A stretch of DNA of 64,000 bases. Source: Henricia sp. BOLD:AAB3569 (Eukaryota > Echinodermata > Asteroidea > Spinulosida > Echinasteridae). The notes beneath the pieces were generated by a model. It was not told the DNA's origin. It searched no databases and was given only the letters and a program-made list of their open reading frames with translations. The translations under genes were made by a program, and so were the position numbers. Shown here piece after piece: positions 1,513 to 43,860 of this stretch; position 1 is the first letter of the stretch; every line of letters starts with the position of its first letter. The stretch is from assembly GCA_037783545.1 (NCBI GenBank), contig JBBELK010000515.1:1054001-1118000 (forward strand), given 5' to 3'.

Positions 1513-2742
1513 ATGTACCTGCTTGAGATTTGTCTACTGTTGGTGTTGGTGCATGAAGGTGGCTGCAACAGCTACTTCTCAAAACAGCCACAAGATACCT
1601 TGGCCGTGATAGGAGATAACGTGACATTGAGTTGTACACTCACAGTTACAACATGCGGTCCTGATCGATCTGATGGATACAGAAATCAACTTTTGTGGGT
1701 ATACCAACCCTTACACGGAAATCCAACTACTCTCTCCGAATGCCTGTCTACATACTCAAATGTAAATGAAAGATACACAATCTCATCCCAAAATTTGTGG
1801 AATCTCCACGTACAAAATGTCCAACGAAGTGACGCAGGAAGGTACAGATGCGACCTATATCGTAATGACAGATCTGACTCTTCATCCCTTGCGGCTCTCA
1901 CCGTAGTAGACCCGATAAACACGACTGTCATACCGACTCGTCCCACCAAGAGAGAAGGCAGTCGCGCTTCGTTCCGCTGCGAGGCTAATCTTGAGCCAGA
2001 TGACTCATATGCTTGGTTTTTATCAACCGGTGGACTTTGGGAAAGAATACAAATCTCAGACACCTTCAGACTAACTAGGAACGGAATGAACCTTACCGTC
2101 TCTCCTCTCAGAATGGAACACAATGGCAGTAGAGTGGCGTGTGAGGTGTTCAGGGGCAACACTTCATTAACGAGGCAGAGACAAACTGCCTTGTTGATAG
2201 TTGATCCCACCGAGCCTACCACAGGTGCCCCACCATCTGTTCCAATAAAAGACGAATCTATCGAGGATATGGAACCCACCGAGCCTACCACAGGTACCCC
2301 ACCATCTGTTCCAATAACAGACGAATCTATCGAGGATATGGAACCTGGTACATCGCCACCAGTTGCACCAGGTGAAGGACGTTACGGAACGGTCACCGTT
2401 CAATCACCAACCACATCACCTCCAGTACCAGGCAACACCAACAAGTCAACAGAGTTCCCAATTTGCATTATGGGTTGGGGTCTCAGCGCTATCTTACTCG
2501 TAGTACTGTCACTCCTCATGTGCTATATCGTTGTCAAGCATCGACGTAAGGGTCGTTCGTCCAATAGACGTCCCAACGAACAGCCAGTAGGTGCGGATGA
2601 CACGATGATGGCTTATTACTCAATACACGGGCAAGGGGGTCGGCGTGGACTCACAGCACACGGCTACGAACAGTCAGTCGATTTGACCAAGCAAATAGCA
2701 GCAGGTGGACGAGATGAGACACAGACCGCCTTGTACATGTAA
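1513..2742 (+). CDS. Two-Ig-domain type I membrane receptor, member A1
   Basis: A single uninterrupted exon of 409 residues. The start is the ATG at 1513, which is shared by all five paralogues (MYLLEICLLL leader, signal cleavage near residue 18-19). Ig domain 1 has C41, W62 and the D-A-G-R-Y-R-C motif ending at C113, plus extra cysteines C48 and C77. Ig domain 2 has C156, W168 and C210. A Thr/Pro stalk holds two tandem 23-residue repeats. The membrane helix is about residues 316-341, then HRRKG. The tail has AYYSIH, GYEQSVDL and ends ALYM. Sequons include N36, N193, N204 and N216. Compared with A2, B1 and B2 it stops about 25 residues early, losing the final tyrosine motif. Probably a cell-surface immune or recognition receptor; the ligand is unknown. 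Confidence 0.87.
   Translation: MYLLEICLLLVLVHEGGCNSYFSKQPQDTLAVIGDNVTLSCTLTVTTCGPDRSDGYRNQLLWVYQPLHGNPTTLSECLSTYSNVNERYTISSQNLWNLHVQNVQRSDAGRYRCDLYRNDRSDSSSLAALTVVDPINTTVIPTRPTKREGSRASFRCEANLEPDDSYAWFLSTGGLWERIQISDTFRLTRNGMNLTVSPLRMEHNGSRVACEVFRGNTSLTRQRQTALLIVDPTEPTTGAPPSVPIKDESIEDMEPTEPTTGTPPSVPITDESIEDMEPGTSPPVAPGEGRYGTVTVQSPTTSPPVPGNTNKSTEFPICIMGWGLSAILLVVLSLLMCYIVVKHRRKGRSSNRRPNEQPVGADDTMMAYYSIHGQGGRRGLTAHGYEQSVDLTKQIAAGGRDETQTALYM
2206..2343 (+). repeat. Tandem 69-bp duplication in the A1 stalk
   Basis: Two units, 2206-2274 and 2275-2343, each encode 23 residues of the form PTEPTTG-PPSVPI-DESIEDME. They differ at very few bases. None of the other four paralogues has this repeat, so it is a recent stalk-length change. 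Confidence 0.9.
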
Positions 2743-2866
2743 CATGTAACTGTGTATGTACATGGTATTTACATGGTCTTTAATGTTAAAATTATCGTAA
2801 CTCAAAAACTGTAGGAGTGCCCATCCTAAATCCTTCTGGAAGTGTTCCTTACATCTTAAGCTAACA

Positions 2867-2872
2867 AATAAA
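2867..2872 (+). promoter_or_regulatory. Candidate polyadenylation signal of A1
   Basis: AATAAA lies 125 bp after the A1 stop codon. It is the first canonical hexamer downstream. Confidence 0.45.
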
Positions 2873-3365
2873 AACAAATTACGCATTTTGACAAATACGC
2901 ATTTTTGCAAATCAAGGTCAAAGGTTATAAATTCAAATAACTTTTTTGTGGTACGAGATACAATTTTGATGTTATATCATAAAATGAAGGCCATTTCTAG
3001 AGCTTTAAAATGATGTCAAGTTTATCTCTGTAGGCCCATTACTTTGAGAGATATAATTGTCCAAACATAGCAGGTCATGCTAATTAGTCAAACGTTCGTT
3101 GACCCGTATCTCAAATTAACTGACCGAACTACATACAATTTTAGTTCTCGGGGTTTCTCAAGGAGTCCTATCAGCACACCAAATTTCATTTCAATCCGTG
3201 ATGGTCAGGTCCAAAAGCTGGTTGAATTGACACGAAATGACCCTATTACTTAACAATTGCGAGCTAAAACCATGTATGCAAATGGTGTGCTTGTGTAGAG
3301 ACCTGGTATATATTTTTCAGGTTGTCTTTAATCATTTCCTGAAATGATTGACTTAGCAGCCAAAG
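2873..3365. other. Intergenic, no gene seen
   Basis: No coding feature. The stretch from about 3270 (ATGCAAATGGTGTGCTTGTG) recurs at about 12380, so the dispersed unit described next may begin here. Confidence 0.5.
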
Positions 3366-4960
3366 TCAACTAATCCCATAAACTTTCAGCTCCATATGCA
3401 GTAATTTGTTCGTTTTTAAAAACCGATAATATACACATTGTACTATCGATATACACGAACTTGGTACAAAAATGAGTGTAGAATTTTGTGATTCACAAAT
3501 TTCGAGTGTACAAATCAAACTGGTGTAGTGGTCTGTTTTCCCAGCATGCTTTGCATATTGCTGCATGTATTGTCAAATGTGCATTCGTGAATGTATGGCC
3601 ACCTTTCACATGTCATTTCAGAGCCACCGTACATTCAGTGGAGAAATGAGCACACAAACCATTACACTGGAAAAATGACCTTTGCATGTCATGTGCATAT
3701 TTCATTTAATCTACGGACTTATAATTTGTATATATGCAAGTAATTAAATTTATGATTCGGCAGTAAATTCTAGTTAGTACTGGGGCATTTCCAGCGTAAC
3801 ACAAACCACCCAGCCCTGATCACTGGTCTGCCGACTGACGCACGCCCCACTCCAGGCAGGCCGCGTCTGCGATGGATGGATGGACTGCGACGATGGTCCG
3901 GAAAGCCGGCAGCAGCTCTCGCCGACGACGCAGCAGCTCGTGCCCCCATGCCACAGAAGGAACATGGAACCAGATCAACTTCAATGGTGCTAAGAAGTCA
4001 TAGCCGCCAAGGCGCCTCTGGCGTACGACGATGATGATGATGAGTACTACTTTACAACATACAAAATATATATTTAGTTCAAGGTATTTAGCCTCTTTTT
4101 GTACAAGAGGAAAACATTTTTGAATGACATGAAGGTTCAACAGAAGAAACAAATCCAACACCAAAACTTAGATCAAAATATCAAATATTTGTATTACGAT
4201 TTAACAATTATTGCACATTATTCATTTTTGTATATGTAATTTTGCTTACACAGTAAGAATTTCAACTATTAGGCCAAAAAAAAAAAACTATGTTTAGCGT
4301 AAGTTGAAGTCTCCCAAAATGACGCGGTGATGCGATTTTTTTTCTCCGTTTTTTTTGTTTGTTGGGGGGTAAGTGGATTCTAAGCAGTAAAGTCAAGTTG
4401 ACATGAAGCCAACAGGCATGTTTTTATTCGAAACACTACAAAAAAAAGAAAAGAAAAAAACAACTTTGTCGCGCAGGTTGAAAGTGACGAGCGCGCTAAC
4501 GATAAACAGAGTTATTTTTGTTGTTGGCCTTATCAACAATAATTCTCTATATATCACAGAAAGATATATATGCAGTAAAACAGTAGTATTTCAGATTAGT
4601 TTAATAGTATGAAATAACAAAAAAAAATTTAATAGCCAAAAGGACAAAGTTATTGCATTGTGACATCTGTGTAGTGTTCTTAAAGTGGGACTTAAACATT
4701 TAAATTTTTGTTCCCTTTTGTCTTGCAATAAACATTTCGTCGGTAACACCACGTACTGACACACAGGGGCACTATATAGTGCTTGTCTACTGTACAAAAT
4801 GCACGTAAATTGTGTTCACCTATTGTAAATTAACAAATTAGGGAGTGTTTCGGTCAAGTTTTTACTATATTCCACGAGTGTATGGATGACATAATTTGTG
4901 TCAATCATTTTCAAAGCTTTTTTCGAATAAATTCAACGTTTACTTATTAATAATAATAAT
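3366..4960. repeat. Dispersed non-coding unit, copy A
   Basis: A repeat of roughly 1.3-1.5 kb with landmarks TTTTCCCAGCATGCT, ATGGCCACCTTTCACATG, TTCTAGTTAG, TATATATTTAGTTC, AACAGGCATGTTTTTA and ACATTTCGTC. Copy B lies at about 13240-14317. Copy C lies at 14318-14716 and resumes at 17452-18360. A partial inverted copy is at 49850-50010. No protein is encoded. Copy A is interrupted by the insertion at 3782-4042 and lacks the TTAA MITE found in copies B and C. Confidence 0.75.
3782..4042 (+). mobile_element. 5'-truncated LINE 3' end, AGTACT target duplication
   Basis: A GC-rich 261-bp insertion in copy A at a point that is empty in copy B (TTCTAGTTAGTACTACC near 13695). It is flanked by AGTACT at 3776-3781 and 4043-4048 and ends in a (GAT)n tail, as non-LTR retrotransposons do. 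The + frame contains GRPRLRWMDG, which resembles the basic C-terminal tail of LINE polyproteins. The insertion boundaries are seen directly; the LINE class is inferred. Confidence 0.65.
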
Positions 4961-5119
4961 AATTTAAAATGCGCAAATTCCAAAAAAGAAATTATGTTTA
5001 AATGCGCATAACAATACAGTGTACTTACACTACAACTAAAGAATTGGTTAAAATAAAAAGATACTAATTACTAATTAACACATAAAAAGTACGATAACAT
5101 AAATCGATCGATCAATCAT

Positions 5120-5296
5120 TTATACATATGCGCTGAGGAACAAGTATGTTTTTAATTTACGCTTAAATTCAGCAAGAGTCGGAGCTGAGCGGACATTTTG
5201 GGGCAGTCGGTTCCATAAAGTGGGTGCAGCTACAAAAAAATGCTCTGTCACTGAGTGTTTTTGACATCTTTCCACTGGGTAGACTTAGCAGATTAG
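5120..5296 (-). pseudogene. LINE reverse transcriptase C-terminal relic
   Basis: The minus strand encodes FFVAAPTLWNRLPQNVRS followed by APTLAEFKRKLKTYLF and a stop. This is the standard C-terminal end of jockey/CR1/L2-type non-LTR reverse transcriptases. The preceding KTLSDRAFF is in another frame, separated by a run of T, which suggests a one-base frameshift. The rest of the element was not found, so this is a dead 5'-truncated copy. Confidence 0.8.
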
Positions 5297-6535
5297 AAGT
5301 TTGAGATCGTAAGGATGTCAGTTACATCTCAGTTCGTGGAAGACCAATAAACCATATGTTTTAGCTAAGTCGTCCTTTTGGTTGTTGCAAGACATATTTC
5401 AGTGTGTCATAGTATAAGAGAAATAACCGATAAATTTCCACGCAAATTTACTTGAAACGTGTAATGTAATGTTACTAATTTATTATCTGAATGATACTGA
5501 TCAACCATTTTGCTCCTCAGATTATATACACTAAGTGCTCACTGATTTGATCGAAATTCCGATTGAATTCGTGAAGTTGTTTTCCACCATTTTGTATAAC
5601 TATGGTGCACATTTGTTGGTTTTCCATGAACAGGAAATAATACGCACATGCAGTTACACTGGACTTTAATAACAAATGACAAATCAATTATATCAAAACG
5701 CACGTTAAATACGTAATGGTGCAAAATACTGCAATTCAATAGTATTGCCGCCTTTGCCGGTATTATATGAAGTTCAGACTTTGCTCTCATACATCCTTGA
5801 ATATTTCAAATATTTTCGCCGGCACAGTAAGACAAGCTCACAGCCTATAGTAAGATAACTGTTTGGGTGAGAGATGGAAGAAGGGGCACCTGAGGTATAG
5901 GCCTTCTGGAAAATAATGTTATTGCTGCTGATAAGCGGCATCCTCTTGCAACAGTGCCCCTTTAACGCACTCCCTAACTCCTGCGTACAGTGGCCCTGTT
6001 GAAAAAGGCCCCATTTGGCGGTGGGACTAGCGACAGTAATCTTGTCGCCTCTGCTGGACCAATCAGGACGCTTGCAGTGCATTGTAGCACGATTGCAGGC
6101 ATTCAAATGTATACGCGCCCAGATTGTAAACACCGTGCATGCATGTGATACATGTACTCGGTAATGCTGGCCGTTGTCCGCGTCGGCGATTGGCTGCTAT
6201 TTAAAGCATATTGGGGAATCCCTTCCATTACATTTGTCAGCATGCATCCCTGTTATTAATTTGAGAAACTGCGGAGTAAATAAGGTTCGTCGTTTGAAAG
6301 TTTGGTAGGAATGGGACAGTCATAAGGAACGGAACCCAATACAATTTCTGGAAAGTATAGAAATTGTTTCTTTTCGGCATAACATGACCGAATTGATTAA
6401 ATTACATCAAAATGACTCGGGCGTGAGTTGGCTCAAGACAACAGCCGGCTCGCTCCACAGATTTGCGTGTATTTCCTCAGGGTATTGTCACGTCGCTTTG
6501 CAGAGTAGAAATTCCCTGAGATCTCAGGATGATAA
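5297..6535. other. Intergenic, no gene seen
   Basis: No gene is supported. A 119-residue minus-strand frame at 5774-6133 has no recognisable domain or splice context. Confidence 0.4.
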
Positions 6536-6890
6536 GCGGGAGCGTGACCAAATAACATTTTTACCACTGCCCCCGCTTCCCCTCCATTTTCCCCACGGGT
6601 GTTGAAATTTAAGTGCCATATAATGTGTCATATTTTTCTCATTATCATTTTGAACATCCTAAATTTTCGCGCCCTCAGTCGATGTATTTCTTATCAAAAT
6701 CCACCGAATTTTAGTAAACTAATGTATCCGGTTACATAAAAAAGTGCAATGATTACACCGAACTTTTACTATCCACATTCAAATTGTGGATAGCAGATTT
6801 CATGTTTTCTTCCCGTGGACAGTATTTTGGGGAGGTATTTTATATGATTGTTAGGTTAGAACGAAATCCATTTTTTGTGTGTGGAAAAAT
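6536..6890 (+). repeat. Dispersed repeat D (GGAGCGTGACCA family)
   Basis: About 350 bp starting GGGAGCGTGACCA and including TCTCATTATCATT, GATTACACCGAAC, TTTTCTTCCCGTGG and GTTAGGTTAGAACG. Related copies are at 19049-19420, 20220-20520 (inverted), 28798-28970, 46165-46290 and 62727-63040. No coding content. Confidence 0.65.
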
Positions 6891-7077
6891 CTGGTATACG
6901 CTCTTTAATAACGCGCTGCATTGCAAAAAACGACAAACCTCCGTTAGCTCCGAAAATGGTACTTTGTGCCAACACACCCTCGCCTATAGTAAAACCCGGA
7001 CGGACGTGCTGTACTTTGGTATTTTTCACACGTGTTTTCCCGCAAAAGCAAATCAATGAGGAACAAAAACTGTTATT

Positions 7078-7447
7078 AGGCGAAATAAAAAAAAAAAACA
7101 TGTTTCTCGTCCCCTCCCGCTTCCTTTTTTGAGGCCGCCTGGATTTATTTTTTATTTTTTATTTCAAAAAAATGAGACAAAAATATTAAAAACTACAACA
7201 AATCCGTCGGAAAATAAATACTTGCGAGTTCGAAGTCTTCTATATAGACTCTCTCGGTGACTTTCTACATCGTGTAGCTTCTGTATCATCGCTAAATATG
7301 TCTTCGCACGAGTCTATTTACCTGCAACGGCCTAGAAATCTCTAATGGCAGTCATCTTGAAAAATAAAAATTAAAAAATAAAAAGCCCCTCTTCCTCCTT
7401 TTTTTTGAAAACCCGGACGAGAAACATGTTTTATTTTTTACTCGGCC
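7078..7447. mobile_element. Fold-back element with AACATGTTTCTCGTCC ends
   Basis: About 370 bp. The left end has AACATGTTTCTCGTCC, and its inverted copy GACGAGAAACATGTT lies near the right end, followed by an AT run and GGCC. Probably a MITE; no duplicated target was resolved. Confidence 0.5.
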
Positions 7448-8031
7448 TTACAGGTGCATGGAAAACCTAATATACCGAACTTGTGTACGACAGGATATGG
7501 TGTTTATCACAAAACCTTTTACAGAATGAAACGAAAGCAACGGAAAAGTTAACGAAACAACTATCGCATCCGGCTGTTTGTAATAGTCCGCTTGTTATTT
7601 TATTCTGTTTTTTGTTCTTTTTTAATTTCTTCAAATATCCCATGTCCCAATTTAGATTCCATTTTTTCCTATAAAAATTTATCAATTTTATCCCTACATT
7701 TTTAAAAGTATGAATAAAGAACACGATAAATCATTTGCCTTGTGAAGTGCTATAGCAAAACAATAGCTTTCATGCAGCTAGTGACGACGGTTTGGTTTTA
7801 GGTTTCACACATGTGTAAGTCTCGTTTCGGGTCACACTTCCGGAGACCAGTCAGGGAATGGCAATGGATCTTTTTTGAATTATTACCTTACCGTACCGCC
7901 GTTAGGCGTTTGTAAGCGCACAAACACAAATAAATGGAAAAAGCACCTTAAAATCTATCGATTCATTAAATAAAATGTTGTCCGAGCTTCATCAGTCCAT
8001 GCGAGCGCCGACGTCGCTCGGGGAGGGTAGG
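7448..8031. other. AT-rich spacer, no gene seen
   Basis: No supported feature. The open frames here are short and encode low-complexity hydrophobic or lysine-rich strings. Confidence 0.4.
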
Positions 8032-8032
8032 G

Positions 8033-8070
<38 letters not shown>
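8032..8070 (+). repeat. Poly-G tract
   Basis: A nearly unbroken run of G of more than 30 bases. Similar tracts occur at 10878-10900, 11229-11260 and 44789-44823. They could form G-quadruplexes and are prone to length error in assembly. Confidence 0.85.
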
Positions 8071-8071
<1 letters not shown>

Positions 8072-8257
8072 GCCCTCTTTACCCCCTAACGATTTCTTTT
8101 TCAGTTTTGTATATATTTCTCGAGATCAACTTACGTGGTCGAATGTCTCTCATTTCGGATCTATATACGAGCTTCCCTAAATCGCATTGTAAACCCGTTC
8201 ATGCACCAGATGCTATACCCTTTTCGTAGCTGTAGACACATGTTAGTTCTCGCTATA

Positions 8258-8398
8258 GAGCCTTTGCACGGCGGCCATGACAGGGGGCAGTCACATTGTT
8301 ACCATGAGTCATGCATGAGTAGGTGCTTTGTGGTTCTATTGTTACATTATTTAAATAAGAAAACCTGCCCACTGTCATGGCCGCTGGTGCAGAAGCTC
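8258..8398. mobile_element. Small inverted-repeat element inserted at TATA
   Basis: A 141-bp element with inverted ends (left GGCGGCCATGACAGGGGGCA, right its near-complement). It is flanked by TATA on both sides and interrupts the duplicated promoter-proximal block. In the A1 version the two sides are adjacent (TTCTCGCTAAGATACCATG near 1210-1228). Confidence 0.75.
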
Positions 8399-8411
8399 TA
8401 TACCATGCGAG

Positions 8412-9210: not shown

Positions 9211-9389
9211 CATGCGAGCCGTTGGCTCAACTGCTAAAAATCATTTCATTGTTTTAACAATGATAGTTCCTTGTTTACGAGGGCTTGTTTTCCATTTTTA
9301 CAACAATGACACTGCATATGGTTCGTGTGACCAGTTCTAAAACGGAAGGAACTTGAAAAAAAATGATTACCCACGCACAGAAAGCCGTT

Positions 9390-9396
9390 TATAAAT
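9390..9396 (+). promoter_or_regulatory. Probable TATA box of Ig gene A2
   Basis: TATAAAT in the same conserved context as at A1 (1401-1407), 109 bp before the ATG. The two element insertions lie upstream of this core promoter and leave it intact. Confidence 0.6.
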
Positions 9397-9498
9397 TCCA
9401 GGTATAGGCTATACTGCGTCTGCATTCACTTCACCTGCTGTGCTTCAGCTCCGATCGGATGAACATTCTGAGTTTTGCTTTGCTCGCAATCTGGTACC

Positions 9499-10647
9499 AT
9501 GTACCTGCTTCAGATTTGTCTACTGTTGGTGTTGGTGCATGAAGGTGGCTGCAACCATTTCTTCTTGAAACCGCCACAGGATACCTTTGCCGTGGTAGGA
9601 GATAACGTGACATTGAGTTGTACAGTCAACGTCACATCGGCTTGCAGTGCACCATGTGGTTCAAATTACAGTTTTTACTGGGAAAGCAAAGCCGAAAATA
9701 AATATTCCCGCCTAAGATCCGCGCCCAATTGCTTGTCCACATACTCATATAAGAGATATATGGTCTCATGCCAAGGTGATTCGGAATGGGTTCTTCGCAT
9801 TCCGAGCGTCCTACCAAGTGATGCAACGGAGTACAGATTTCACGTGGGATCAGGTGCCAATAAGTACCATTCATACGCGACCCTCACCGTACTAAACCCG
9901 ATAAACACGGCTGTCAAACCGATTCGCCGCACCAAGGAAGACAATCATGCGTCGTTCCGCTGCGAGGCTCATCTTCAGCCATATGACTTATATGCTTGGT
10001 TCATATCAACCGGTGGAGTTTGGGAAAGAATACAAACCTCGGATACCTTCAGAATAACTGGGAACGGAATGAACCTTACCATCTCCCCGCTAATAATAGA
10101 ATACAACGGCATTGAACTAGCGTGTGAGGTGTTCAGAGGAAATATGCCATTAACAAGACAAAAACAAACCCTCTTGTTATTACCGTACCCGAATAAAACG
10201 GAATCTGGTGCATCACCAACCACATCACCGCCACGTGCACCAGTCAACACCAACACGTCAACAGAGTTCCCAATTTGCATTCTGGGTTGGGTTCTCAGCG
10301 CTATCTTACTCGTAGTACTATTTATACTCCTCGTTAGCTGTATCGTTGTCGAGCATCGACGTAAGGGTGGTTCCTCAAGTAGACGTCCCAACAAACAGGC
10401 AGTGGGTGCGGATGACAAGATGAAGGCTTATTACTCAATACACCTCGGGCAAGGGGCTCGGCGTGAACTTCCCATACCCACAGCAGACGGCTACCAACAG
10501 CCAGTAGAGTTGATCCAGCAAAGAGCAGCAAGTGGACGAGATGACACACAGACCACCTTGTGCACGAACACGGGGATTCAGAACTCAACCGGGGTCAAAG
10601 GGATGTCTGACCTAGATCAAGTCGTGTACTACGAGGTCTCAGCATAA
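9499..10647 (+). CDS. Two-Ig-domain type I membrane receptor, member A2
   Basis: A single exon of 382 residues with the family leader MYLLQICLLL. Ig domain 1 keeps C41 and W61, but the expected second cysteine is phenylalanine: the D-A-T-E-Y-R-F motif puts F at residue 114. It has other cysteines at 49, 53, 78 and 91. Ig domain 2 is regular (C155, W167, C209). The stalk is short (SGASPTTSPPRAP). The membrane helix follows FPICILGW, then EHRRKGG. The tail has KAYYSIHL, GYQQPVEL, TLCTNTG (tyrosine replaced by cysteine) and ends VVYYEVSA. A 382-residue length and an intact frame argue for a working gene with an altered first domain. Function is inferred from architecture only. Confidence 0.85.
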   Translation: MYLLQICLLLVLVHEGGCNHFFLKPPQDTFAVVGDNVTLSCTVNVTSACSAPCGSNYSFYWESKAENKYSRLRSAPNCLSTYSYKRYMVSCQGDSEWVLRIPSVLPSDATEYRFHVGSGANKYHSYATLTVLNPINTAVKPIRRTKEDNHASFRCEAHLQPYDLYAWFISTGGVWERIQTSDTFRITGNGMNLTISPLIIEYNGIELACEVFRGNMPLTRQKQTLLLLPYPNKTESGASPTTSPPRAPVNTNTSTEFPICILGWVLSAILLVVLFILLVSCIVVEHRRKGGSSSRRPNKQAVGADDKMKAYYSIHLGQGARRELPIPTADGYQQPVELIQQRAASGRDDTQTTLCTNTGIQNSTGVKGMSDLDQVVYYEVSA

Positions 10648-10679
10648 ACAACATTCATCGCCTGAAAAGTGTCTTTGGT

Positions 10680-11359: not shown

Positions 11360-11872
11360 TAAAGATAGTATACACGATTGGTAAACTGTTACAAATAGTT
11401 TTATCCCCCGGTGTGATTGAAGATATGCATGATTAAAACCAACCTGAGCAAAAACCAGCTCCGTACTTCGTCTAACTTTTGAGAAAACAGTAACAAAAAA
11501 AGGGTTTGCAGTCACTTTACCCTGAACCATTTCGCCCTGAACCACGGCCTGTGCACGAAGTGGTTTTGGGGCGAAGTAGCATTTAGGCGATGTAGTGTTT
11601 GGACGAAGTGATTTGGGGCGAAATGGCACTCGGGCAAAGTGGTTTGGGGGTGAAATGGCACTTGGGCAAAATGGTTTTGGGGCAAATCTAATTTTCGTCT
11701 CATGAGACGAAAAATAATTGTTTTACTCATTTCTCAAAGACAATAGCACTTCAGACAAAACCATTTCAGTGGAGGTTTTCTACGGTCATCATGTTTATAT
11801 TGTGTAAGTTGGGCGTAAATCTGTGAACATTTCTGATTTTCGAGATACCAATCATGTATACTGCCTTTAAAT
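11360..11872 (+). repeat. Dispersed repeat E with internal GGGGCGAA minisatellite
   Basis: About 510 bp beginning AAGATAGTATACACGATTGG and ending CATGTATACTGCCTTTAA. A second copy lies at 62034-62526 in an intron of the convertase gene. The middle contains about five degenerate units of the type TTTGGGGCGAAATGGCACT. No protein is supported. Confidence 0.75.
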
Positions 11873-16240: not shown

Positions 16241-16268
16241 TTTAATATATTAAGATTATGGTGGCCCT

Positions 16269-19606: not shown

Positions 19607-22600
19607 TCATAATTTACTTTCCATCTTTAACTGTCCATTTTTCAAAATGAATGTTTTACCGTCGATGTTGACTCTTTTTGGGAATGGATTCGTCACCATC
19701 CGATGCATGACGTCCTCAACGGCGACACAGATCTTCTCTAAATAGCTGTACGGCACTCGCTTGTGCACCGGCAAGTAAATCACGTGATCGATGAGATAAC
19801 GCGCCTCGTGGGGATAATACTGCAGGGCGTGGCCGAGTTGGGTGGGGTCAGTGGTGGTGGTAGATAAAGGGCGTGGCTCAATGCAGGTTAGCTGTGTCGC
19901 GCCTCGATACGCATCAATCCAACGGCGATTCAACTCTGTTAAGAATTTCTCTGGCTCTTCCTGAAATTATGCCGAAAAACAATGATTAGTCGATCTCGGG
20001 CTCTAGAGTTTGTTCGATTCCCCTGAAACTCCACCATCTCCAAGCCTACAGGCATACACGTGTAGGAAATGGGGGGAGGGGGGGGGGGACACACATGTGT
20101 CAGTGTGTCAACCACAGTCTGTTTGCCATAGATCCACCAATCAGAATTACAGATTCTCCTTTGCTTTCTACATGTTAAAAAAGCTTGTTCAGATTTTACG
20201 TTTAAAAAAACAGATTTTGTTTGACCTAACAATCTTATAAAATACCTCCCCAAAATATTATCCATGGGAAGAAAACAGGAAATTTGCAATCTCTAATTTG
20301 GATGTGGAAGCAGAAAGGTTGGAGTGGTCACTGTACTTTTTTATGGAATGGATAATTCAGTTTACAAAACATTGGGGTTTTTTTTTGACGATATTTTGAA
20401 AATATACAGATTTAGATATGGTAATGAGAAAAATATGACAAATGATAATGGTATCAAAATCTCAAACCCATGGGGAAAATGGGGGGCTCAAAAATGTGAT
20501 GGACAGGGTTATCTCCTTTAATGATAATGGTGGATTCTTGTATAGCGCACGTAACCATATGTGACCCGCTCTGCAAAAAAGGGTATTAAGTCGCGCTGGC
20601 TAGTATTCTTTTTGCGACCATAAGAAGAAATCTGTGGCATTTCTACGCTCATTAAAATACCAAAACAGAAAAGAAATTCCAGGCGTAACGCAGACATTCT
20701 GGGGGGAACACAGACATTCCAGGCAGTATCTGGGCACCGCCAGGAATTTCCATTGTGTTTTGGTATTTTATTGAGCGTGGATTTGCCGCGGATTTCTTTT
20801 TATGGTCGCAAAAAGAATACTAGCCAGCGCGACTTAATACCCTTTTTTTGCAGAGCGGGTCACATATAGGGTACTCCTGGCGCTGTTGCCATTATTACCG
20901 CTGCCATCAGGAAATCACCAGAACCATTTCACTTCAACTAGGTGGCTGCCTGGCCAAGGCGCACAACCCTATCAGCAGTTAGATTGTGGCATTCCCCCTA
21001 ACAGCTCCCCAGTATCGCTTGGGTTGACGAGGCAATTAGGCACATTGCCACAAGTGGGGCTTGAACCCATAACCCCTCATCACGAGCACGGCTGTGTACC
21101 TACTATATCACATGCTCACCCACCATTGCGTCTCGGGTGTAGCTCGCTTTCGAGAGGATATTCATGGCAGCCAACCAAGCGTCAGCACGGCTGTGCCTAC
21201 TTTTCGCACGTAATGTGCGAAATGTAGTTCGATGCACCAATCAGACGACTGGGATTTATTCTGGTATTTTATACAAAATATCACATCACCCCATTGCCTT
21301 ACCACAACAATTGGGAACAGCCAGTAGTTTCTTGTCTCGGTGTCCATTCCCACAAATTCTACATTTAGAGGAAGATGTTCGCTGACATAGTCACACTTCA
21401 CGTTGCCCTCCTGGAATTCGGCTTCATCGAAATCCTGAAACCTATCGAAAAGTAAAGATAGAATATACGTAGAATCAGAAAACTGTTAAAAGCCGCATTA
21501 TATGTGTGTGTGAGATAAAAACCAACATGTGTATTAAGTCAGCTCAGTACCTCATCTATGCTCAAAGAAAACATTGAAAAACTGTGTCCATGCTTTCAAG
21601 AAATTATGCAAACCCCCTGTCCTATATAGGCTGATTCCCTGGCTTACTGCACGGAAAACCACTAAAACCACTAAACTGCACAGTAATATACACACACTGA
21701 CTGGCATAATTCAGTCACTAGTGCACGTCTATTCAGCCTGGGGGACTGAGTGACCACAAGAGGGTATGTGTATGTACTTCGGGGGAACGGAATAAAAAAA
21801 AAGTTTTTGGTATTGCGTCCCCTTACCTTCTGAGCATTGTACGAAGTAATGCCATGGACGGCTGATGTCGGATCAGTAAGATAAGGTTAGAGGTGAAGCC
21901 ACGAAGAAAAGCAACCACCGCTTTTTTGTGGTCAATTTTTAACGCTTGTAGTAACGGCAGACACACAATAATTGATATAGGAGCGTTTAGTGCCATCATC
22001 CCGATAACACACTTCAGGATTTTCTTCAAGTAGGTCGCTCTACTCTGAATCGGGTACCTCAGATTCAGGCTTAGCATTTTCTGGAATGTTACGGGGTCTT
22101 TGATTCTAGCAACAGCACCACCGAAGGCTGTGTTCGCCTTGATGGATCCAAAACTGAAAAGCGAAATGTCAGCGCCACGATGGCCCTGCTTTGTAAATCC
22201 GCAGAAGACTTGAGCACAGTCTTCGATGACCGCGAGGCCGCGTGAAAGACATATTTCCACGACCTTGTCAATCCGAGACCATCGGCCGTAGAGGTGGGCG
22301 ATGACAATGGCTACAGATTTCTCACTGATTAAAGACTCGAGGAGATCTGTCTTCGGAGCAAGCGTTTCCACGCTGATGTCCACTGGAACAACTCGGAGTC
22401 CGTGATGGTGAACGATATCCACCATCTGGGGGATATTTATGGCTGTCATGAGAATCTCCGAGCCTGGGGGATATTTTTTCACGCGGAGGAACAAATCGAA
22501 GGCAGTGCGAACACATAAACATGGTAAAATATATTGGTCTTTAGTTGGAAGGTTGGATCTCGAGGTCCATAAATGTTGCAGTTCAGTCGTGATTTGCTCT

Positions 22601-26200: not shown

Positions 26201-26464
26201 TTAGGCGTCCGGCGGGACGTCATAAAGGTTTGATCATGAATCCGGGCCGCTCCTCCCTTTGACCCCAGTTGAATTCTGAATCCCCGTGTTCGAGTACAAG
26301 GCGGTCTGTGTCTCAACTCGCCCACTTGCTGCTTTTTGCTGGGTCAACTCGACTGGCTGTTCGTAGCTGTCTGCTGTGAGTTCACGCCGAGCCCCTTGCA
26401 CGAAGTGTACTGAGTAATAAGCCTTCATCTTGTTATCCGCACCTACTGCCTGTTTGTTGGGACG
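26201..26464 (-). pseudogene. Detached cytoplasmic tail of Ig gene A3
   Basis: After the A3 stop the frame stays aligned with the paralogues: RPNKQAVGADNKMKAYYSVH, SYEQPVEL, ALYSNTG. A second TGA follows at 26234-26236, inside an extra six bases (TGATCA) absent from B1 and B2, then NLYDVPPDA and a TAA at 26201-26203. The conserved tyrosines remain readable in the DNA but would be translated only if both TGA codons were read through or spliced around. I read it as a relic. Confidence 0.8.
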
Positions 26465-27415
26465 TCAACTGGACGAATCACCCTTACGTCGATGCTTGAC
26501 AACGATATAGCACACGAGGAGTGATAGTATTACGAATAAGATAGCGCTGAGAACCCAACCCAGAATGCAAATTCGGAACTCCGTTGACGTGTTGGTGTTG
26601 ACTGGTGGAGATGATGTGGTTGGTGATTGAACGGTGACCGTCCCGTAACATCCCGTGCTGTCTGATGTAGCAAGTGGTGATGTACCACCAGATTCCATAT
26701 CCTCGAGGCGGACTATCAACAAGGCAGTTTGTTTCTGCCTCGTTAACGAAGTGTTGCCCCTGAACACCTCACACGCCACTCTACTGCCGTTGTGTTCCAT
26801 TCTGAGAGGAGAGATGTCAAGGTTCGTTCCGTTCCTAGTTAGTCTGAAGGTGCCCGAGGTTTGTATTATTTTCCAATGTCCTCCGGTTGATATGAACCAA
26901 GCATATGAGTCATCTGCCTGAAGATAAGCATCGCAGCGGAACAAAGCGCGACCGCATTCTCTTTTGGTGGGACGAGTCGGTGTGACAGCCGTGTTGATCG
27001 GGTCTACTACAGTGAGAGCCGCGAAGGATGAATAGTAATGTCTCTGATCACGATACGAATATACGTGACATCTGTACCTTCCTGCATCACTTAGTTGGAC
27101 ATTTTGTATGTGCAGATCCCACTCTGAATCTTGGGATGAAATTGAGTATCTTCCATTTATATTTGAGAATGTAGACAGGCAATCGGATAGATGGGTTGGA
27201 TTTCCGTGTGAGGATCTGTGTTCCCAATAAAGTCCGTTATCTTGGTATCCATCAATTCGAAAAGGACCGCATGCTGTAACGGTATTAAGTGTAAAACTCA
27301 ATGTCACGTTATCTCCTATCACGGCCAAAGTATCCTGTGGCGGTTTCGAGAAGAAACTGATGCAGCCACCTTTATGCACCAACACCAACAGTAGACAAAT
27401 CTCAAGCAGGTACAT
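26465..27415 (-). CDS. Two-Ig-domain receptor A3, short-tailed form
   Basis: A single exon of 316 residues from the family ATG. The leader is MYLLEICLLL. In Ig domain 1 the first canonical cysteine is phenylalanine (VTLSF, F41), while C49, C79 and C116 (AGRYRC) are present. Ig domain 2 is complete (FRCDAYLQADDSYAW to VACEVF). The stalk includes SPLATSDSTG and QSPTTSSPP. The membrane helix is about residues 284-306, then KHRRKGDSSS and a TGA. Paralogues have AGA (Arg) at that codon, so the tail tyrosine motifs are lost. It may be a tailless decoy or partner-dependent receptor, or an early pseudogene. The open extracellular frame favours some remaining function, but this is inference. Confidence 0.75.
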   Translation of the reverse strand: MYLLEICLLLVLVHKGGCISFFSKPPQDTLAVIGDNVTLSFTLNTVTACGPFRIDGYQDNGLYWEHRSSHGNPTHLSDCLSTFSNINGRYSISSQDSEWDLHIQNVQLSDAGRYRCHVYSYRDQRHYYSSFAALTVVDPINTAVTPTRPTKRECGRALFRCDAYLQADDSYAWFISTGGHWKIIQTSGTFRLTRNGTNLDISPLRMEHNGSRVACEVFRGNTSLTRQKQTALLIVRLEDMESGGTSPLATSDSTGCYGTVTVQSPTTSSPPVNTNTSTEFRICILGWVLSAILFVILSLLVCYIVVKHRRKGDSSS

Positions 27416-27523
27416 GATACCACGAGACCAGATTGCGAGCAAAGCACAACTCAGAATTTTCATCCGAGCTGAAGCACAGCAGCTGAAGCGAATGCAGATA
27501 ATGGCCTATCGAAGATTAAAGAC

Positions 27524-37889: not shown

Positions 37890-39226
37890 AGCAACATGCA
37901 TGGTTTTCGTGTATTATGAATGGTAACAAAAATTATTACATTTCGAGTATGTATACAAGTAACATAATAAACTGTCCTCTTTAAAAATGTATCTGAGTAA
38001 TTATATTTAACCGCCATCACATATCCAAAATGTTAAAGGCTTTTCTCGAAATTGTGATCAAACTCATCAAGTTGTTTTTTCGTCATGAAGTTAGTAACTT
38101 TCTCCGATCTTTCACGGCTTTTATTATATCAGTGAAGAAATCTGCAGCATTTCGACACAATTTCTCTTTAAATGGATCTGAAACGCAATGACGTCACGCA
38201 TTTGTTTGCATGCGTGCTTTCCTGTGGCCCTACGTTGTCTGGTACCCTGAGACTTCTCCATAGATTTACGCGCATGTAAACACATCGTGACGTCATTATG
38301 TTTCAGGTCCATTCTGTTTTTCTTTACTTTCACTGCATGGGAGGTCGACATGAAGTAACGTGGCATTTTCCATGATCGTATAAGAGATTTCAACATCCAC
38401 TCCGAAGGTCTAGAAAGTCCAGGCAAGGTCTCATCGAGACCATCTGAAAACATTTTCCTCTAATACAAAAAAGGTCGTAAAGAGTACTAGAAAAGATATA
38501 GTATAGTATTAATAAGCCATTCCATACACCCTGGCAAATGCATTAAATGTAATGCACCTATCAATTGTTTCCCCCACCCCTCCCCCGGGCTACTCCACCT
38601 AAAAAGTGGGGATTGTCATTTTTCGCATGACAAAATCCCCACCCCTGGGGCAAAATTCAGGTGACAAAAATCCCTACTTATACGGGTGCAGAACGTGCAT
38701 GTTTTGCTCCCAGGTGCGCTGAAAATTTGATTTCTATGTGTCAAAATCCCCACCCTGGGGCATGAAAATCTTGACCAAATCCCCACTTAAGGGGTGGGGC
38801 AGCCCGCGGGAGAGACTTCCAGTATTCATTATAAAGTACATGTGTACAACTAATTCCGCATATACAATTTACACCGTCGTCAGTAAAGAATGCTCAAAAC
38901 TTCTTTTCAATTTAGAAACACTTCAGTAATTCGTTTGTTCTTTATTTTCGGTTTTTCATACTAATTTGAAAGGTTCAAACATTTATTTTTGTCTCACGCT
39001 TTTTGTCGTTATAATACAGCTACCTGATTCTTTATACTATGTGCTTTGTTCTATATACCAACCTCTTATGCCCCTAAGATGCGCTCTACCCATCACATAT
39101 CTCTTTACGCACAAAACATGATTACCGCATCCGAGCACAGTAAGACGCCTACACCCCTCCTCGTCCTCTGTCCACTATACTGTGTCATGTACACACTTTA
39201 ATAGCCACACGTCGCCAAGAGAAATG
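37890..39226. repeat. Segmental duplication flanking Ig gene B1
   Basis: Matches 41870-42621 downstream of B2: shared GTGTATTATGAATGGTA, TATCTGAGTAAT, CATCAAGTTGTTTTTTCGT and GAAGTAACGTGGC. The B1 side has extra insertions at 38171-38310 and 38570-38800. The block shows that B1 and B2 arose by duplication of gene plus 3' flank. Confidence 0.8.
38171..38310. mobile_element. MITE with TGGATCTGAAACGCAATGAC ends
   Basis: The inverted ends read TGGATCTGAAACGCAATGAC and GTCATTATGTTTCAGGTCCA. It is missing at the matching point in the B2 flank (about 42150), so it inserted after the B1/B2 duplication. Confidence 0.75.
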
Positions 39227-40519
39227 TTAGGCGTCTGGTGGGATTTCATAGAGCTTTGAATCCGGGTCACTCCTCCCTTTGGCCCCAGTTGACATCTGAG
39301 TCCCCGTGTTCATGTACAAGGCGGCCTGTGTGTCATCTCGTCCACTTGCTGCTCTTTGCTGGGTCAACTTGACTCCCTCCTTGCGGGAAACACGTGGCTG
39401 TTCGTAGTCATCTGTGGCGAGTTCATGCCGAGCTTCGGTGAGGTCTAGTTCCATGTAAACTCCCGTCTTGCTATCCGGACTTTCTGTCTGTTTCTTGGTG
39501 CGTTTGTTGCTGGAACTGCCGCTGCGTCGCCTCTTGGTCCAAACGAAGTACACGAGGAATGCAACGAGTAGAGCGGCACTGACAGCCCACCCCGAAATTG
39601 TCATCAAAGAGTGTGCACAATTGGAACATTCTAAGCAAGTAGCCTCATCCGTCGGTTGTGAAGCACCACTGTCGGAATTTGTTGCCGTGGAGATAGGCTT
39701 ATTAGGAACCGTGGGTTGAACGCGGGGCTCGTCATTTTCACTGTTTTCGTTTACAACTGATTCGTCCCATTGCGTAGATAGCGGTTGTGATGTAACTGTG
39801 GTAGGCTCGGTCGTGACAGAGGTTCTCGCGGCTTCAACTATCAACACGGCAGTTTGTCTCTGCCTCGTTAACGAAATGTTGCCCCTGAACACCTCACACG
39901 CCACTGTACTGCCGTTGTGTTCCATGCTGAGAGGGAACATGGTAAGGTTCATTCCGTTCCCAGTTAGTCTGAAGGTGTCTGAGGTTTGTATTTTTTCCCG
40001 AAGTCCATCGGTTGATATGAACCAAGCAAATGAGTCATCTGGCTCAAGATGAGCCTCGCAGCGGAACGAAGCGCGACTGCCTTCTCTCTTGGCGATACGA
40101 GTCGGTTCGACGGCTGTGTTTATTTGGTCTACAACGGTGAGAGCCACAATGAATGAAGAGTGCCATCTCGTACCGAATTTGATATTCGAAAACAGGTAGC
40201 ATCTGTACCCTCCTGCATCTCTCTGTCTGACATTTTCTATGTGCAGAGCCCACTCCAAACCACGGGTTGAGATCGTATATCTATCCACGTCCGTGGACAT
40301 GCAGTTAGAGAAAGTCGGTAATGTTCCACGTTGCCAATGAATGCTGTAATATGGATTTCCATCTCGATAAGGACCGCATGCTGTAACGTTGAGTGTGCAA
40401 CTCAATGTCACGCTATCTCCTATCACGGCCGAGGTATTCTGTGGCGGGTTCGAGATGAAACCGTTGCAGCCACCTTCATGCACCAACACCAACAGTAGAC
40501 AAATCTCAAGCAGGTACAT
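39227..40519 (-). CDS. Two-Ig-domain type I membrane receptor, member B1
   Basis: A single exon of 430 residues, the longest member. Leader MYLLEICLLL. Ig domain 1: C41, W62 and C107 (DAGGYRC), plus C48 and C73. Ig domain 2: C154, W166, C208. A long Ser/Thr/Asn-rich stalk (about residues 230-294) ends in CLECSNC just before the membrane helix (about 305-327), then KRRRSG. The tail has four tyrosine sites: GVYMELDL (Y355), DDYEQP (Y372), ALYMNTG (Y402, Y-x-N type) and KLYEIPPDA (Y424). Y-x-x-L and Y-x-N motifs can recruit SH2 proteins when phosphorylated (established for other receptors, inferred here). The upstream sequence lacks the A1/A2 promoter block. TATATAAA at 40546-40553 is only about 30 bp from the ATG. 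Confidence 0.88.
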   Translation of the reverse strand: MYLLEICLLLVLVHEGGCNGFISNPPQNTSAVIGDSVTLSCTLNVTACGPYRDGNPYYSIHWQRGTLPTFSNCMSTDVDRYTISTRGLEWALHIENVRQRDAGGYRCYLFSNIKFGTRWHSSFIVALTVVDQINTAVEPTRIAKREGSRASFRCEAHLEPDDSFAWFISTDGLREKIQTSDTFRLTGNGMNLTMFPLSMEHNGSTVACEVFRGNISLTRQRQTAVLIVEAARTSVTTEPTTVTSQPLSTQWDESVVNENSENDEPRVQPTVPNKPISTATNSDSGASQPTDEATCLECSNCAHSLMTISGWAVSAALLVAFLVYFVWTKRRRSGSSSNKRTKKQTESPDSKTGVYMELDLTEARHELATDDYEQPRVSRKEGVKLTQQRAASGRDDTQAALYMNTGTQMSTGAKGRSDPDSKLYEIPPDA

Positions 40520-40545
40520 GATAGCACGTATTATATGATGCCGTT

Positions 40546-40553
40546 TATATAAG
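40546..40553 (-). promoter_or_regulatory. Possible TATA box of Ig gene B1
   Basis: The minus strand reads TATATAAA 27 bp before the ATG. If used, the 5' leader would be almost absent, so transcription may instead start further upstream. Low certainty. Confidence 0.3.
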
Positions 40554-40579
40554 TTTAGATGCCGTTTATTACAATTCAC

Positions 40580-41111
40580 AAAATTGGGCTAAATGATCTC
40601 AGTTATTACTATCCAGTAGATGTTGGTTAGATGCATTGATGGTACCAAAATGGAGAACTGCATGACAGGCTTGCGTGTTGATATAACAATGGATCATAGA
40701 ACTACAATGAATTGCTAAATATGTAACGCTATACTAACCGTGGAATTGGCACATGCATGCATTGCACAATAACAAGGCAAAGGTTTACAACCTAAAATCA
40801 CAGATCGAAGGGAAATGAATGATACTGTGAGAGTGGGTGAAACGAAACATAGTGTGGATGCTGCTTGACATAATATCACGGTCATTGGAGACAACAATAA
40901 CACTACCGTCGAGTTCAATTACCGGTAGTGCAGTATCCCACTCAGGGTTTCGGTTTTTGTGTGACCATTTTTTAAAAATAACAAACTTGCTATTAAATGT
41001 TGGAAATCTTACAAATGGGCCTTTTTTCACAGTAAAGAGGGCATTTTGGCCATATTTTAGAGGAAATACCTTTGTCTGGTTTTAAAATAAAAGAAATAAG
41101 TTTCAGTTGTT
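40580..41111. other. Upstream region of B1, no gene seen
   Basis: No supported exon or repeat. ORF fragments on both strands lack domains. Confidence 0.35.
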
Positions 41112-41280
41112 CAGCAGCCGATTTCACGATAGAGTGCGCAGCTTGCGCAACTTTTGCAAAATGGCGCAAGCCCCGTAGCTTGCGTGTAATTTTCACAGGA
41201 ATGTTGCGCAGCCTACGCAATAAAATGTTGCGCAAGCGGACTTACGCAGTGCGTATAAGGATTCGTGAAATCTGCTGCTG
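41112..41280. mobile_element. Fold-back MITE with CAGCAGCCGATTTCACGA ends, copy 2
   Basis: Same family as 16269-16420. Between the conserved GTTGCGCAAGCGGACTTACG and GGATTCGTGAAAT it carries a short extra CAGTGCGTATAA. Confidence 0.85.
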
Positions 41281-41586
41281 TATAGATAACTTTGGCCCAA
41301 AAGGGTTACAAATAGTGTGACAACATGCCTTTCTAAAAACCCTGTGTACAAATTTCCAATATACGCTCGTAACCGGGACGGACACTTTGTGTTACACTTT
41401 TTATTTACTTTTAGACCAGACAAAGGTATTTTCTGGAAAATATGGCCTGTGTTGCCAAATTGCGCCCTTTACCGTGGAAAGAGCCCATACATAAAGGGAC
41501 ATCATCATTCTGAAAACAAACTTCTATGAACAGTCTCGTGGACTTTACGGACTCCGTAGAAATGTAATTGTTAGTGTGTGTATATA

Positions 41587-41870
41587 AACTCCTCAAAAAA
41601 AGTTCGGAAAGTCAAGTTTGACTGACGATTTCTCTCTTGTTACTAAATAATTTCCCTTGAATTTTGTATAAGTGGAAAGCCCTGTGATTCCTCTTTACAG
41701 TGATGTGTCATTTGTTATGATTAATCTATTGGGGGATGTGCAGTATAGCGGAATACAAGGGTGGGTGGAAAGTGAAATGTCCGAAAATTCACTGCTATTG
41801 TCATGCAGTGCATTCCCTTTTTGCTTGGAGGATGGGAATGTGTCAATGCACTTTTTTTCAGCCACATAGA
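41587..41870. mobile_element. Left arm of the AAACTCCTCAAAAAAAGT fold-back element
   Basis: Matches the left half of the complete element at 53751-54229 (TCAAGTTTGACTGACGATTT, GTGCAGTATAGCGGAATACA). The right arm is absent, so it is a solo arm. Confidence 0.8.
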
Positions 41871-42621
41871 TGCATGGTTTTGTGTATTATGAATGGTATT
41901 ACATGTATAAAAAAAATGATTACATATAACAAACTGTCCTTATTACAATTGTATCTGAGTAATTTATATTTAACTGCCATCACATATCCAAAATGTTAAA
42001 GACTTTTTACGAAATTTTGATCAAACTCATCAAGTTGTTTTTTCGTTACAAGTATAAGTAACGTTCTCCGAGTAATACAAACAAGCCATATCTTTCACGG
42101 CTTTCCCTCATATATCAGTGAAGAAATCGGCAACATTTCGACACAATAATATTCCTCTTTCAATTCCAATGTCTTTCTTGCACTGTTCACTGTATAGAAG
42201 GTAACGAAGTAACGTGGCGTTTTCCATGACACTAAAAGTGAATTTCAATTTTCATACTGTTTATACACACACGTTGATCTTTTCATAAATTTAAACACAT
42301 TCACGAATACGAATGCTCAAAAACTCTCATAAATTTAGATACTTTTTAGTAATTCGTTTTTTCATACTAATAAATTTTCAAAAGGTTTTTTTTCTTTCTT
42401 ACAATCATGATTAACTTTTTTTCTGATTCTTTGTAGTTTTATACTGTGTGTTGTGTTCTACCTATGCCCATAAGATGCGTTCTACCCACCCCATCTGTCG
42501 CCCAAAGCATGACTAGTTCTACCCTTTCGAGTACAGTAAGACCCCGCTCACACCCCTTTTCATCCTCTGCCTACAGAGACTGTCATGTTCACACGTCGGT
42601 CATACATCGCAAAGAGAAATT
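41871..42621. repeat. Segmental duplication flanking Ig gene B2
   Basis: Counterpart of 37890-39226 without the two later insertions. Immediately before the B2 stop codon region, words such as AAGATGCG(T/C)TCTACCCA are shared with the flanks of A3 and B1. Confidence 0.75.
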
Positions 42622-43860
42622 TTAGGCATCTGCCGGGTCTTCATAGAGGTTTGAATCCGGGTCACTACTCCCTTTGGACCCAGTTGACTTTTGCCCAATG
42701 CTCAGCATGTACAAGGCGGTCTCTGTGTCATCTCGCCCATTTGCTGCTCTTTGCTGGGTCAACTCGACTGGCCGTTCGTAGCCGACTGTGGCGCGTTCAT
42801 GCCAAGCTTCGGTGAGGTCTAGTTCCATGTAAACTCCCGTCGTGTTATGAGAACTTTCTGTCTGTTTCTTGGTACGTTTGCTGTTGGAACTGCCGCTGCG
42901 TCGCCTCTTGGTCAGGATGAAGTACGCGAGGAATGTAACGAGTAGAGCGGCATTGATGACCCACCCTGAAATTGCTATCAGGGGGTCTGCACAATTGGAG
43001 CATTCTAAGCAAGTAGATTCCGTCTCTGGGCTGGTTGTGCCAGGTTGGGTAACACGGGAATTTGTATTCTTATCGACTGGAGATGATGTGGTCGGTGATT
43101 GCAAGGTGACCGTCCCGGCAAACTCAGTGGTGACCGGTTCAATCTTGGGATCAACTACCAACAAGGCAGTTTGTTTCTGCCTCGTTAACGAACTGTTACC
43201 CCTGAACACCTCACACACCACTCTACTGCCGTTGTGTTCCATTCTGAGAGGAGAGACGGAAATAATCATTCCGTTCCCAGTTATTCTGAAGGTGTCCGAG
43301 GTTTGTATTCTTTCCCAAAGTCCACCGGTTGATATGAACCAAGCATATGAGTCATCTGCCTGAAGATTAGCCTCGCAGCGGAACGAAGCTCGGTCGCCTT
43401 CGCTCTTAGTAAGACGAGTCGGTTTGACAGCTGTGTTGATCTGGTCTACGACGGTGAGAGCGCCAAAGGGTGAAAATGGCAATCTGGTATCAGAATCTAC
43501 AAATGAATACACATCGCATCTGTACCCTCCTGTATCACTCTGTTGGACGTTTTGTATGTGCAGAGCCCACTCAGAACCTGCAGATGAGACTGTATATCTC
43601 TCAGTTACATATGAGTACATGGACATGCAATTGGAGAGGCCAGTTAGGGATTCATTTGAGGCTCTCTGTTCCCAATAAAGTTTGTAATCTGGCTTACTAT
43701 TAGATCGAAGAGGACCGCATGCTGTAACGGTGAGTGTACAACTCAATGTCACGTTATCTCCTATCACGGCCAATGTATTCTGTGGCGGTTTCGAGAAGAA
43801 ACGGTTGCAGCCACCTTCATGCACCAACACCAACAGTAGACACATCCCAAGCAGGTACAT
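42622..43860 (-). CDS. Two-Ig-domain type I membrane receptor, member B2
   Basis: A single exon of 412 residues. Leader MYLLGMCLLL. Ig domain 1: C41, W63, C115 (GGYRC), plus C48 and C78. Ig domain 2: C162, W174, C216. The stalk contains GTVTLQSPTTSSPVDKNTN, closely like A1 and A3, and then CLECSNC as in B1. The membrane helix is about residues 294-316, then KRRRSG. Tail motifs: GVYMELDL (Y344), GYERPVEL (Y361), ALYMLSI (Y384, no longer Y-x-N) and NLYEDPADA (Y406). The A-type stalk joined to a B-type membrane and tail region suggests a past conversion or recombination. The 5' flank matches A1-A3 up to about 43975 but has about 60 extra bases near 43880-43935. Confidence 0.88.
   Translation of the reverse strand: MYLLGMCLLLVLVHEGGCNRFFSKPPQNTLAVIGDNVTLSCTLTVTACGPLRSNSKPDYKLYWEQRASNESLTGLSNCMSMYSYVTERYTVSSAGSEWALHIQNVQQSDTGGYRCDVYSFVDSDTRLPFSPFGALTVVDQINTAVKPTRLTKSEGDRASFRCEANLQADDSYAWFISTGGLWERIQTSDTFRITGNGMIISVSPLRMEHNGSRVVCEVFRGNSSLTRQKQTALLVVDPKIEPVTTEFAGTVTLQSPTTSSPVDKNTNSRVTQPGTTSPETESTCLECSNCADPLIAISGWVINAALLVTFLAYFILTKRRRSGSSNSKRTKKQTESSHNTTGVYMELDLTEAWHERATVGYERPVELTQQRAANGRDDTETALYMLSIGQKSTGSKGSSDPDSNLYEDPADA

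Follow-up and report, generated by a model that had tools for sequence, protein, structure and literature searches.

We describe here a family of immunoglobulin (Ig) receptor genes in the sea star Henricia sp. BOLD:AAB3569, represented by five genes in a stretch of 64,000 nucleotides (the window; bases 1,054,001-1,118,000 of contig JBBELK010000515.1, or C515) of assembly GCA_037783545.1, which comprises 740.7 Mb in 2,104 contigs. As read from their translations, the family members are germline-encoded type I membrane proteins, each contained in a single frame, with a V-type Ig domain that varies, a second Ig domain that is better conserved and a stalk of variable length. We consider them probable germline-diversified receptors of immune type, equipped with alternative tails and shuffled by gene conversion.

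The five window genes, A1, A2, A3, B1 and B2 (Table 1), share the order leader, V-type Ig domain, second Ig domain, stalk, membrane helix and tail, each in a single frame, and tblastn comparisons showed that they are homologous, with E values down to 2e-154 between members. The Pfam V-set model matched the first domain of A1, A3, B1 and B2 above the cut-off, no Pfam model exceeded it in A2, and the second Ig domain could be aligned in all five. An earlier reading of the window from its letters (the sequence-only reading) had proposed five open reading frames of this architecture. All five lie where it had placed them, but tyrosine tails are present in four only, and A3 is interrupted; the genes that we judge sound are A1, B1 and B2. 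The proposal that the set differs mainly in stalk and tail was half right. These parts do differ, but the V domain is a main site of difference as well: A1 and B2 are identical at 69/115 positions in V, 80/99 in the second Ig domain, 20/33 in the stalk and 38/93 in the tail, and B1 and B2 at 66/113 in V and 85/119 in the tail.

A genome search with A1 (tblastn) returned at least 74 matches. Twenty family loci, including those of the window, lie on C515 between 440 and 1,098 kb (~658 kb), so that a set of five was an undercount. Leader, V, second Ig domain, transmembrane (TM) helix and tyrosine tail are present in one frame in 13 of the 20 loci (C6, C7, B6, B5, C8, C3, A4, C1, C2, A1, A2, B1 and B2). 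Two loci (C11 and B9) are open and have no usual tail end, two (at 551 and 925 kb) are open and have no second Ig domain, and three (at 441 kb, 449 kb and A3) are interrupted. The other haplotype of the cluster is contig C439 (0-566 kb), colinear with the ~0.55-1.08 Mb part of C515; most of the aligned blocks are 87-96% identical. The allele of A2 on this contig is divided over two overlapping frames. In the genome search with A1, which gives a lower bound, the 532-540 kb interval of C439 held no match to B9, and this suggests presence/absence variation between the haplotypes. The stalk repeat of A1, in two copies in the window, was counted by eye as three copies in the other haplotype. For B7 (664 aa, C439:42770-44845) and B6 (469 aa, C515:557228-558718), too, the two haplotypes have very different numbers of stalk repeats.

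Additional members were found on contigs C607, C272 and C120, and fragments on C60, C305 and C333. L039, a distant relative with 30-32% identity to members of the window family, had 71 matches in the genome on many contigs, none with stops and in frames of 299-1192 aa. Some of these matches belong to the two-Ig family, are additional pieces of a frame already matched, or come from the other haplotype. We read eight of the distant frames (L039-L043, L046, L049 and L050); three Ig-like domains were recognised by eye, the tails were varied, and none of the eight matched a named family. The window cluster is thus a single branch within a larger set of single-frame Ig receptors that extends across the genome.

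Two types of tail are found on like ectodomains. The short A/B tails carry adaptor-type motifs, namely YMEL (B) or YYSI (A), Y(E/Q)QP, YMN and Y(E/D)xP, with variants. The long C tails carry, in order, VYA(V/I)P or VY(L/V)N, VYKN, LVYADL of the immunoreceptor tyrosine-based inhibitory motif (ITIM) type and T(V/M)YADI of the immunoreceptor tyrosine-based switch motif (ITSM) type, called against the consensus of each motif. The tyrosine of the VYA site is retained in 12/12 C tails, with VYASV as a variant in C2h, and the VYKN tyrosine is lost in C8. The ITIM/ITSM end is retained in 11 of the 12, with both motifs in 10 tails and two ITIM-type sites in C7; C11 has neither. Shuffled C tail ends contained both motifs in only 0-13 of 2000 cases. 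The distant frames L039 (LIYADL/INYASI) and L049 (LTYADL/TVYASI) have this end in common with the C tails, so that the C tail may have come first and the A/B tail may be derived.

The histories of ectodomains and tails were compared by means of a tree built from 27 selected ectodomains; interrupted loci except A3, loci without a second Ig domain, and fragments were left out. Forcing the type C rows into one clade was rejected (p-AU, from the approximately unbiased test, 3e-7): ectodomain and tail histories disagree. At least five changes of tail type are forced by the starred branches of this tree. The C label clustered no more strongly than shuffled labels (425/500 shuffles were as low), and the A label was clustered (2/500). 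The DNA of B4 and C6 provides an individual case: 324/350 sites (93%) are identical in V and 261/290 in the second Ig domain, but only 76/165 in the 5' flank and 94/186 at the tail end, where B4/B5 and C6/C7 match at 90-94% in both flank and tail end. The B4/C6 pair is a mosaic, and gene conversion affecting the ectodomain is its best explanation.

Alleles on the two haplotypes were compared at six locus pairs that could be aligned in both flanks; for the C2 pair, whose downstream flank aligns in part, the upstream flank alone was used. In three pairs, divergence peaked in V. The A1 alleles differ at 43/345 sites in V (12.5%) and 50/1949 in the flanks (2.6%; Fisher p 2e-13), the A4 alleles at 98/345 (28.4%) and 52/1729 (3.0%; p 8e-45), and the C1 alleles at 86/339 (25.4%) and 125/2226 (5.6%; p 5e-26). 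In these pairs the flanks are 94-98% and the tails 93-98% identical. The C439 allele of A4 is interrupted, and the comparison used its DNA unchanged. Its V domain is nearest to that of A3 (85.7%), followed by A1h and A1, and has only 71.6% identity to A4. The C8 and C3/C4 pairs, with V identities of 79% and 68% and tail identities of 95% and 92%, were not counted, one or both of their flanks being unalignable. V domains are thus replaced at a locus that retains its leader, tail and flanks. Such a pattern could reflect old balanced alleles, conversion, or a combination of the two.

The same pattern might arise in the assembly itself if reads from tandem paralogues were collapsed or chimeric. 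The 740.7-Mb assembly is divided over 2,104 contigs, both haplotypes of this region are present in it, and the paralogues are close. However, the A1, A4 and C1 flanks and tails match the expected allele, and the nearby DegT-type exon is 99% identical between the contigs. In the six V tracts examined, the mutual match of A1 and A1h aside, no compared paralogue exceeded 85.7%, unlike what a chimeric read would give. We consider an artefact of this kind very unlikely.

Within V, variation is mainly in the loops, as a description of 22 rows: entropy was 1.98 bits in the loops and 0.81 in the rest of V, and 0/5000 random sets reached this, the loop limits having been chosen after inspection of the profile. 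An extra, nearly invariant cysteine pair (C48 and C78 in B2 numbering) may form a second disulphide in V. Selection was assessed by the method of Nei and Gojobori (NG86) in 14 pairs of V, of which C8/C10 gave no values and 13 remained. The raised synonymous divergence (dS) in V is indicative of conversion or of alleles that are old.

Several observations weigh against diversified immune-type receptors shuffled by conversion. Three of the six clean allelic pairs (A2, B6/B7 and C2/C2h) showed no V peak (p 0.5-0.93). Omega in V was 0.40-1.21 in 12/13 pairs and 2.37 in C2/C2h, the latter on 14 changes, and positive selection could not be concluded from the 13 pairs. Seven of the 20 loci on C515 are broken or have no second Ig domain or tail end. 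The A/B tail motifs differ from the canonical ITIM and the immunoreceptor tyrosine-based activation motif (ITAM), and three distant frames that are complete or almost complete (L042, L046 and L050) have no ITIM/ITSM end, L040, L041 and L043 being truncated in the sequence read. None of the TM segments examined has a charge in mid-helix; all charges (Arg in C1 and C5, Glu in A2 and A4) are located close to the cytoplasmic side, and because of this a classical activating mode with a DAP12-type partner is not predicted. Immune function itself is proposed by analogy.

The intron-free frames could alternatively mark a decaying array of retrogenes with little function, and the three interrupted loci on C515, A3 among them, and the four others without a domain or tail end would be in keeping with this. 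On the other side, 17/20 loci are still open despite dS in V of 0.02-0.61 between members (13 pairs), and the ITIM/ITSM end has been kept in 11/12 C tails and two distant relatives. TATAAA is present ~110 bases before the ATG in A1, A2, A1h and B9, and absent there in the other A/B genes listed. No intron-bearing parent was recognised in the genome search with A1, a lower-bound search that is no proof of its absence. Taken together, decay of a retrogene array seems highly improbable.

The sequence-only reading had assigned one uninterrupted exon to each gene, and this holds for the coding frame, with a break at the tail in A3; a 5' non-coding exon is possible. Most A/B genes have ~75 bases before the ATG in common and diverged sequence beyond, and either a start site or a splice acceptor could be located at the border. 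An in-frame upstream ATG is conserved (MNILSFALLAIWSRGIMYLL), and several members may therefore truly begin 16 codons further upstream. Somatic V(D)J joining would seem unnecessary where one germline frame already contains a complete V, although no search for recombination signal sequences was made.

Searches of domains and structures gave generic answers. Among eight receptor proteins scanned, only generic Ig models of Pfam exceeded the cut-off, and the earlier view that no named family can be recognised was borne out. The best 60 of 716 PDB rows for B2 were antibody variable domains and one fly protein, DIP-eta. A structure model of B2, built from an alignment of five rows, was of low confidence (mean predicted local distance difference test score 43), with two beta domains and a TM helix at 294-318. 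Its best 50 Foldseek rows were antibody chains, with TM-scores of 0.19-0.26 when normalised to the length of the query and 0.33-0.43 when normalised to that of the target; the modelled fold thus matches Ig domains generically and permits no family call. The DIP-eta match, a neuronal Ig protein, would suit a family for cell adhesion, neuronal contact or gamete recognition instead of immunity. A V-set domain with a second Ig domain and tyrosine tails also occurs in adhesion molecules, and gamete proteins too show diversity at the level of alleles. However, the ITIM/ITSM-type ends on 11/12 C tails and the swapping of tails are hallmarks of immune-type receptors, and we regard a non-immune family as unlikely.

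We compared the family with known receptor systems. Vertebrate paired receptors (LILR/PIR, SIRP, KIR and hagfish APAR) are likewise tandem Ig genes with shared ectodomains on alternative tails, and the sea-star ITIM/ITSM ends are close to motifs of the SIRP/PD-1 type. The sea-star genes differ in having one coding frame, no mid-helix charge and a tyrosine-rich alternative tail, and we make no claim of orthology. Similar ectodomains on different tails are present, as are inhibitory-type members, with an ITIM-type site in 11/12 C tails, but no short-tailed activating member with a charged TM for an ITAM adaptor was seen in the TM segments examined. The likeness to paired receptors had been noted from the window, which holds A/B tails only; its support comes mainly from the rest of the genome. 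Echinoderm intron-free TLR expansions are also large single-exon germline receptor families, although of LRR/TIR and not Ig type. Polymorphic V domains with haplotype variation occur in amphioxus IgVJ-C2. The polymorphic Hydractinia Alr proteins, whose genotype decides between fusion and rejection and some of which have tyrosine motifs, are likewise invertebrate membrane receptors with V-type Ig domains and clustered genes, but are cnidarian and encoded by multi-exon genes, unlike the single-frame sea-star genes. Passages of PMC11999971 give 41 Alr genes in the allorecognition complex. Amphioxus VCBPs share polymorphic V domains with haplotype variation (passages of PMC2632668), whereas the sea-star proteins have a TM helix and tail; the chitin-binding domain that follows two V domains in VCBPs was not found by Pfam in the eight proteins scanned. 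A YMN-type tail site and a V domain are shared with the CD28 family, whose architecture is different; according to passages of PMC11599192, no convincing homologue of CD28, CTLA4 or ICOS was found in sea urchin and other non-vertebrate deuterostomes.

The window and assembly contain further features (Table 1). The DegT/DnrJ/EryC1 aminotransferase-like frame near A2 covers only profile positions 78-199 and represents, in this animal genome, either one exon or an incomplete gene; its allelic copy is 99% identical at the protein level, with no other copy among the matches. An interspersed repeat of ~600 bp with terminal inverted repeats of ~39 bp, resembling a miniature inverted-repeat transposable element (MITE), occurs at ~40 places at 88-93% identity (40 of 7187 candidates scored). 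A similar satellite-like unit of 31/32 bp forms two arrays ~50 kb apart. COX1 is present in three copies at 16,221-base intervals in contig C955 and in one copy in C2104; the copies in C955 probably reflect a circular mitochondrial genome that was assembled several times head to tail. In the matched stretch of COX1 all eight AAA codons fall on conserved Asn positions, AGR is read as Ser and ATA as Ile, which corresponds to the echinoderm mitochondrial code. ND1, recognised by eye, and a tRNA cluster are inverted immediately upstream of COI, the gene order of asteroids. An amphioxus as source of the DNA was rejected on these grounds.

Table 1. Features of the window, with allelic copies on C439 (positions in the window unless a contig is given).
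Feature	Position	Strand	Description
A1 upstream stretch	1401..1512	+	TATAAA at -112 and the ~75-bp element of most A/B genes; putative promoter/5' untranslated region, by consensus match only
A1	1513..2742	+	409 aa; leader, V and second Ig domains, stalk (23-aa repeat in two copies), TM and short A-type tail terminating after ALYM; last tyrosine site of A1 relatives missing
A1 stalk repeat	2206..2345	+	69-bp (23-aa) tandem repeat
A1, other-haplotype copy	C439:540484-541794		
A2	9499..10647	+	382 aa; A1-like architecture; Phe replaces F-strand Cys of V; third tail tyrosine site is Cys
Satellite-like arrays	11556-11687, 62214-62342		
DegT-type frame	21823-22449	-	open frame
DegT-type frame, allelic copy	C439:562922-563545		
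A3	26201..27463	-	open frame 26465-27463, 332 aa; TGA just past membrane anchor, tail sequence continuing in same frame to a second stop; Phe at B-strand Cys position of V; likely pseudogene
B1	39227..40519	-	430 aa, intact; B-type tail: YMEL, YEQP, YMNT, YEIP
B2	42622..43860	-	412 aa, intact; B-type tail: YMEL, YERP, YMLS, YEDP
tRNA-Thr (AGT)	51105-51179		gene
MITE-like element	56290-56886		

If the family is of immune type, the V loops would, on coelomocytes, bind a ligand that is polymorphic or comes from a pathogen, and Src-family kinases would phosphorylate the tail tyrosines. The C tails would then recruit SHP-type phosphatases and damp the response, and the A/B tails would recruit adaptors of the Grb2/Crk/Nck type and drive another. 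With no introns in the way, short gene-conversion tracts could carry a complete V in frame between tails. In this way one haplotype could combine matched specificities with outputs that differ, and newly arisen V domains could spread between alleles.

The ligand allows two forms of this proposal. These may be germline pathogen receptors in an arms race like that of paired receptors, with V diversity driven by microbes or decoy ligands and no recognition of self, and we give this form, whose confidence overlaps with that of the general proposal, a little less than an even chance. Alternative tails on like ectodomains, as in paired receptors, agree with it, as do the large germline immune families described for echinoderms in a 2026 review (passages of PMC13428168). 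For sea stars and sea cucumbers the review lists large germline families, complement-like molecules and lectins. The passages name no Ig receptor family for these animals, and we found no account of the present family in the open-licence PMC literature searched. However, replacement of V at the level of alleles fits allorecognition equally, and nothing here separates the two.

By analogy, a role in allorecognition is possible. Allograft rejection occurs in sea stars (Dermasterias imbricata, as cited in passages of PMC2248247 and PMC9763293), and coelomocytes of Patiria pectinifera recognise allogeneic cells according to passages of PMC9763293, whose authors hoped for a genomic approach to find self-markers. 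Because of this known allorecognition (PMC9763293, PMC13428168 and PMC2248247, in the passages seen) and the haplotype pattern of V, we put forward, as a quite improbable but specific idea, that the 0.66-Mb cluster is the sea-star histocompatibility complex, in which coelomocytes compare self and non-self through an Ig system built by germline V exchange. If true, the same locus would carry different V domains per haplotype on like genes, with matched V domains on inhibitory (ITIM/ITSM) and adaptor tails. The clustered, haplotype-variable Ig family with ITIM/ITSM-type tails offers a concrete locus for tests of self/non-self recognition in sea stars. It also represents a paired-type receptor organisation outside the vertebrates, reached through one-exon genes whose V domains may be exchanged as cassettes.

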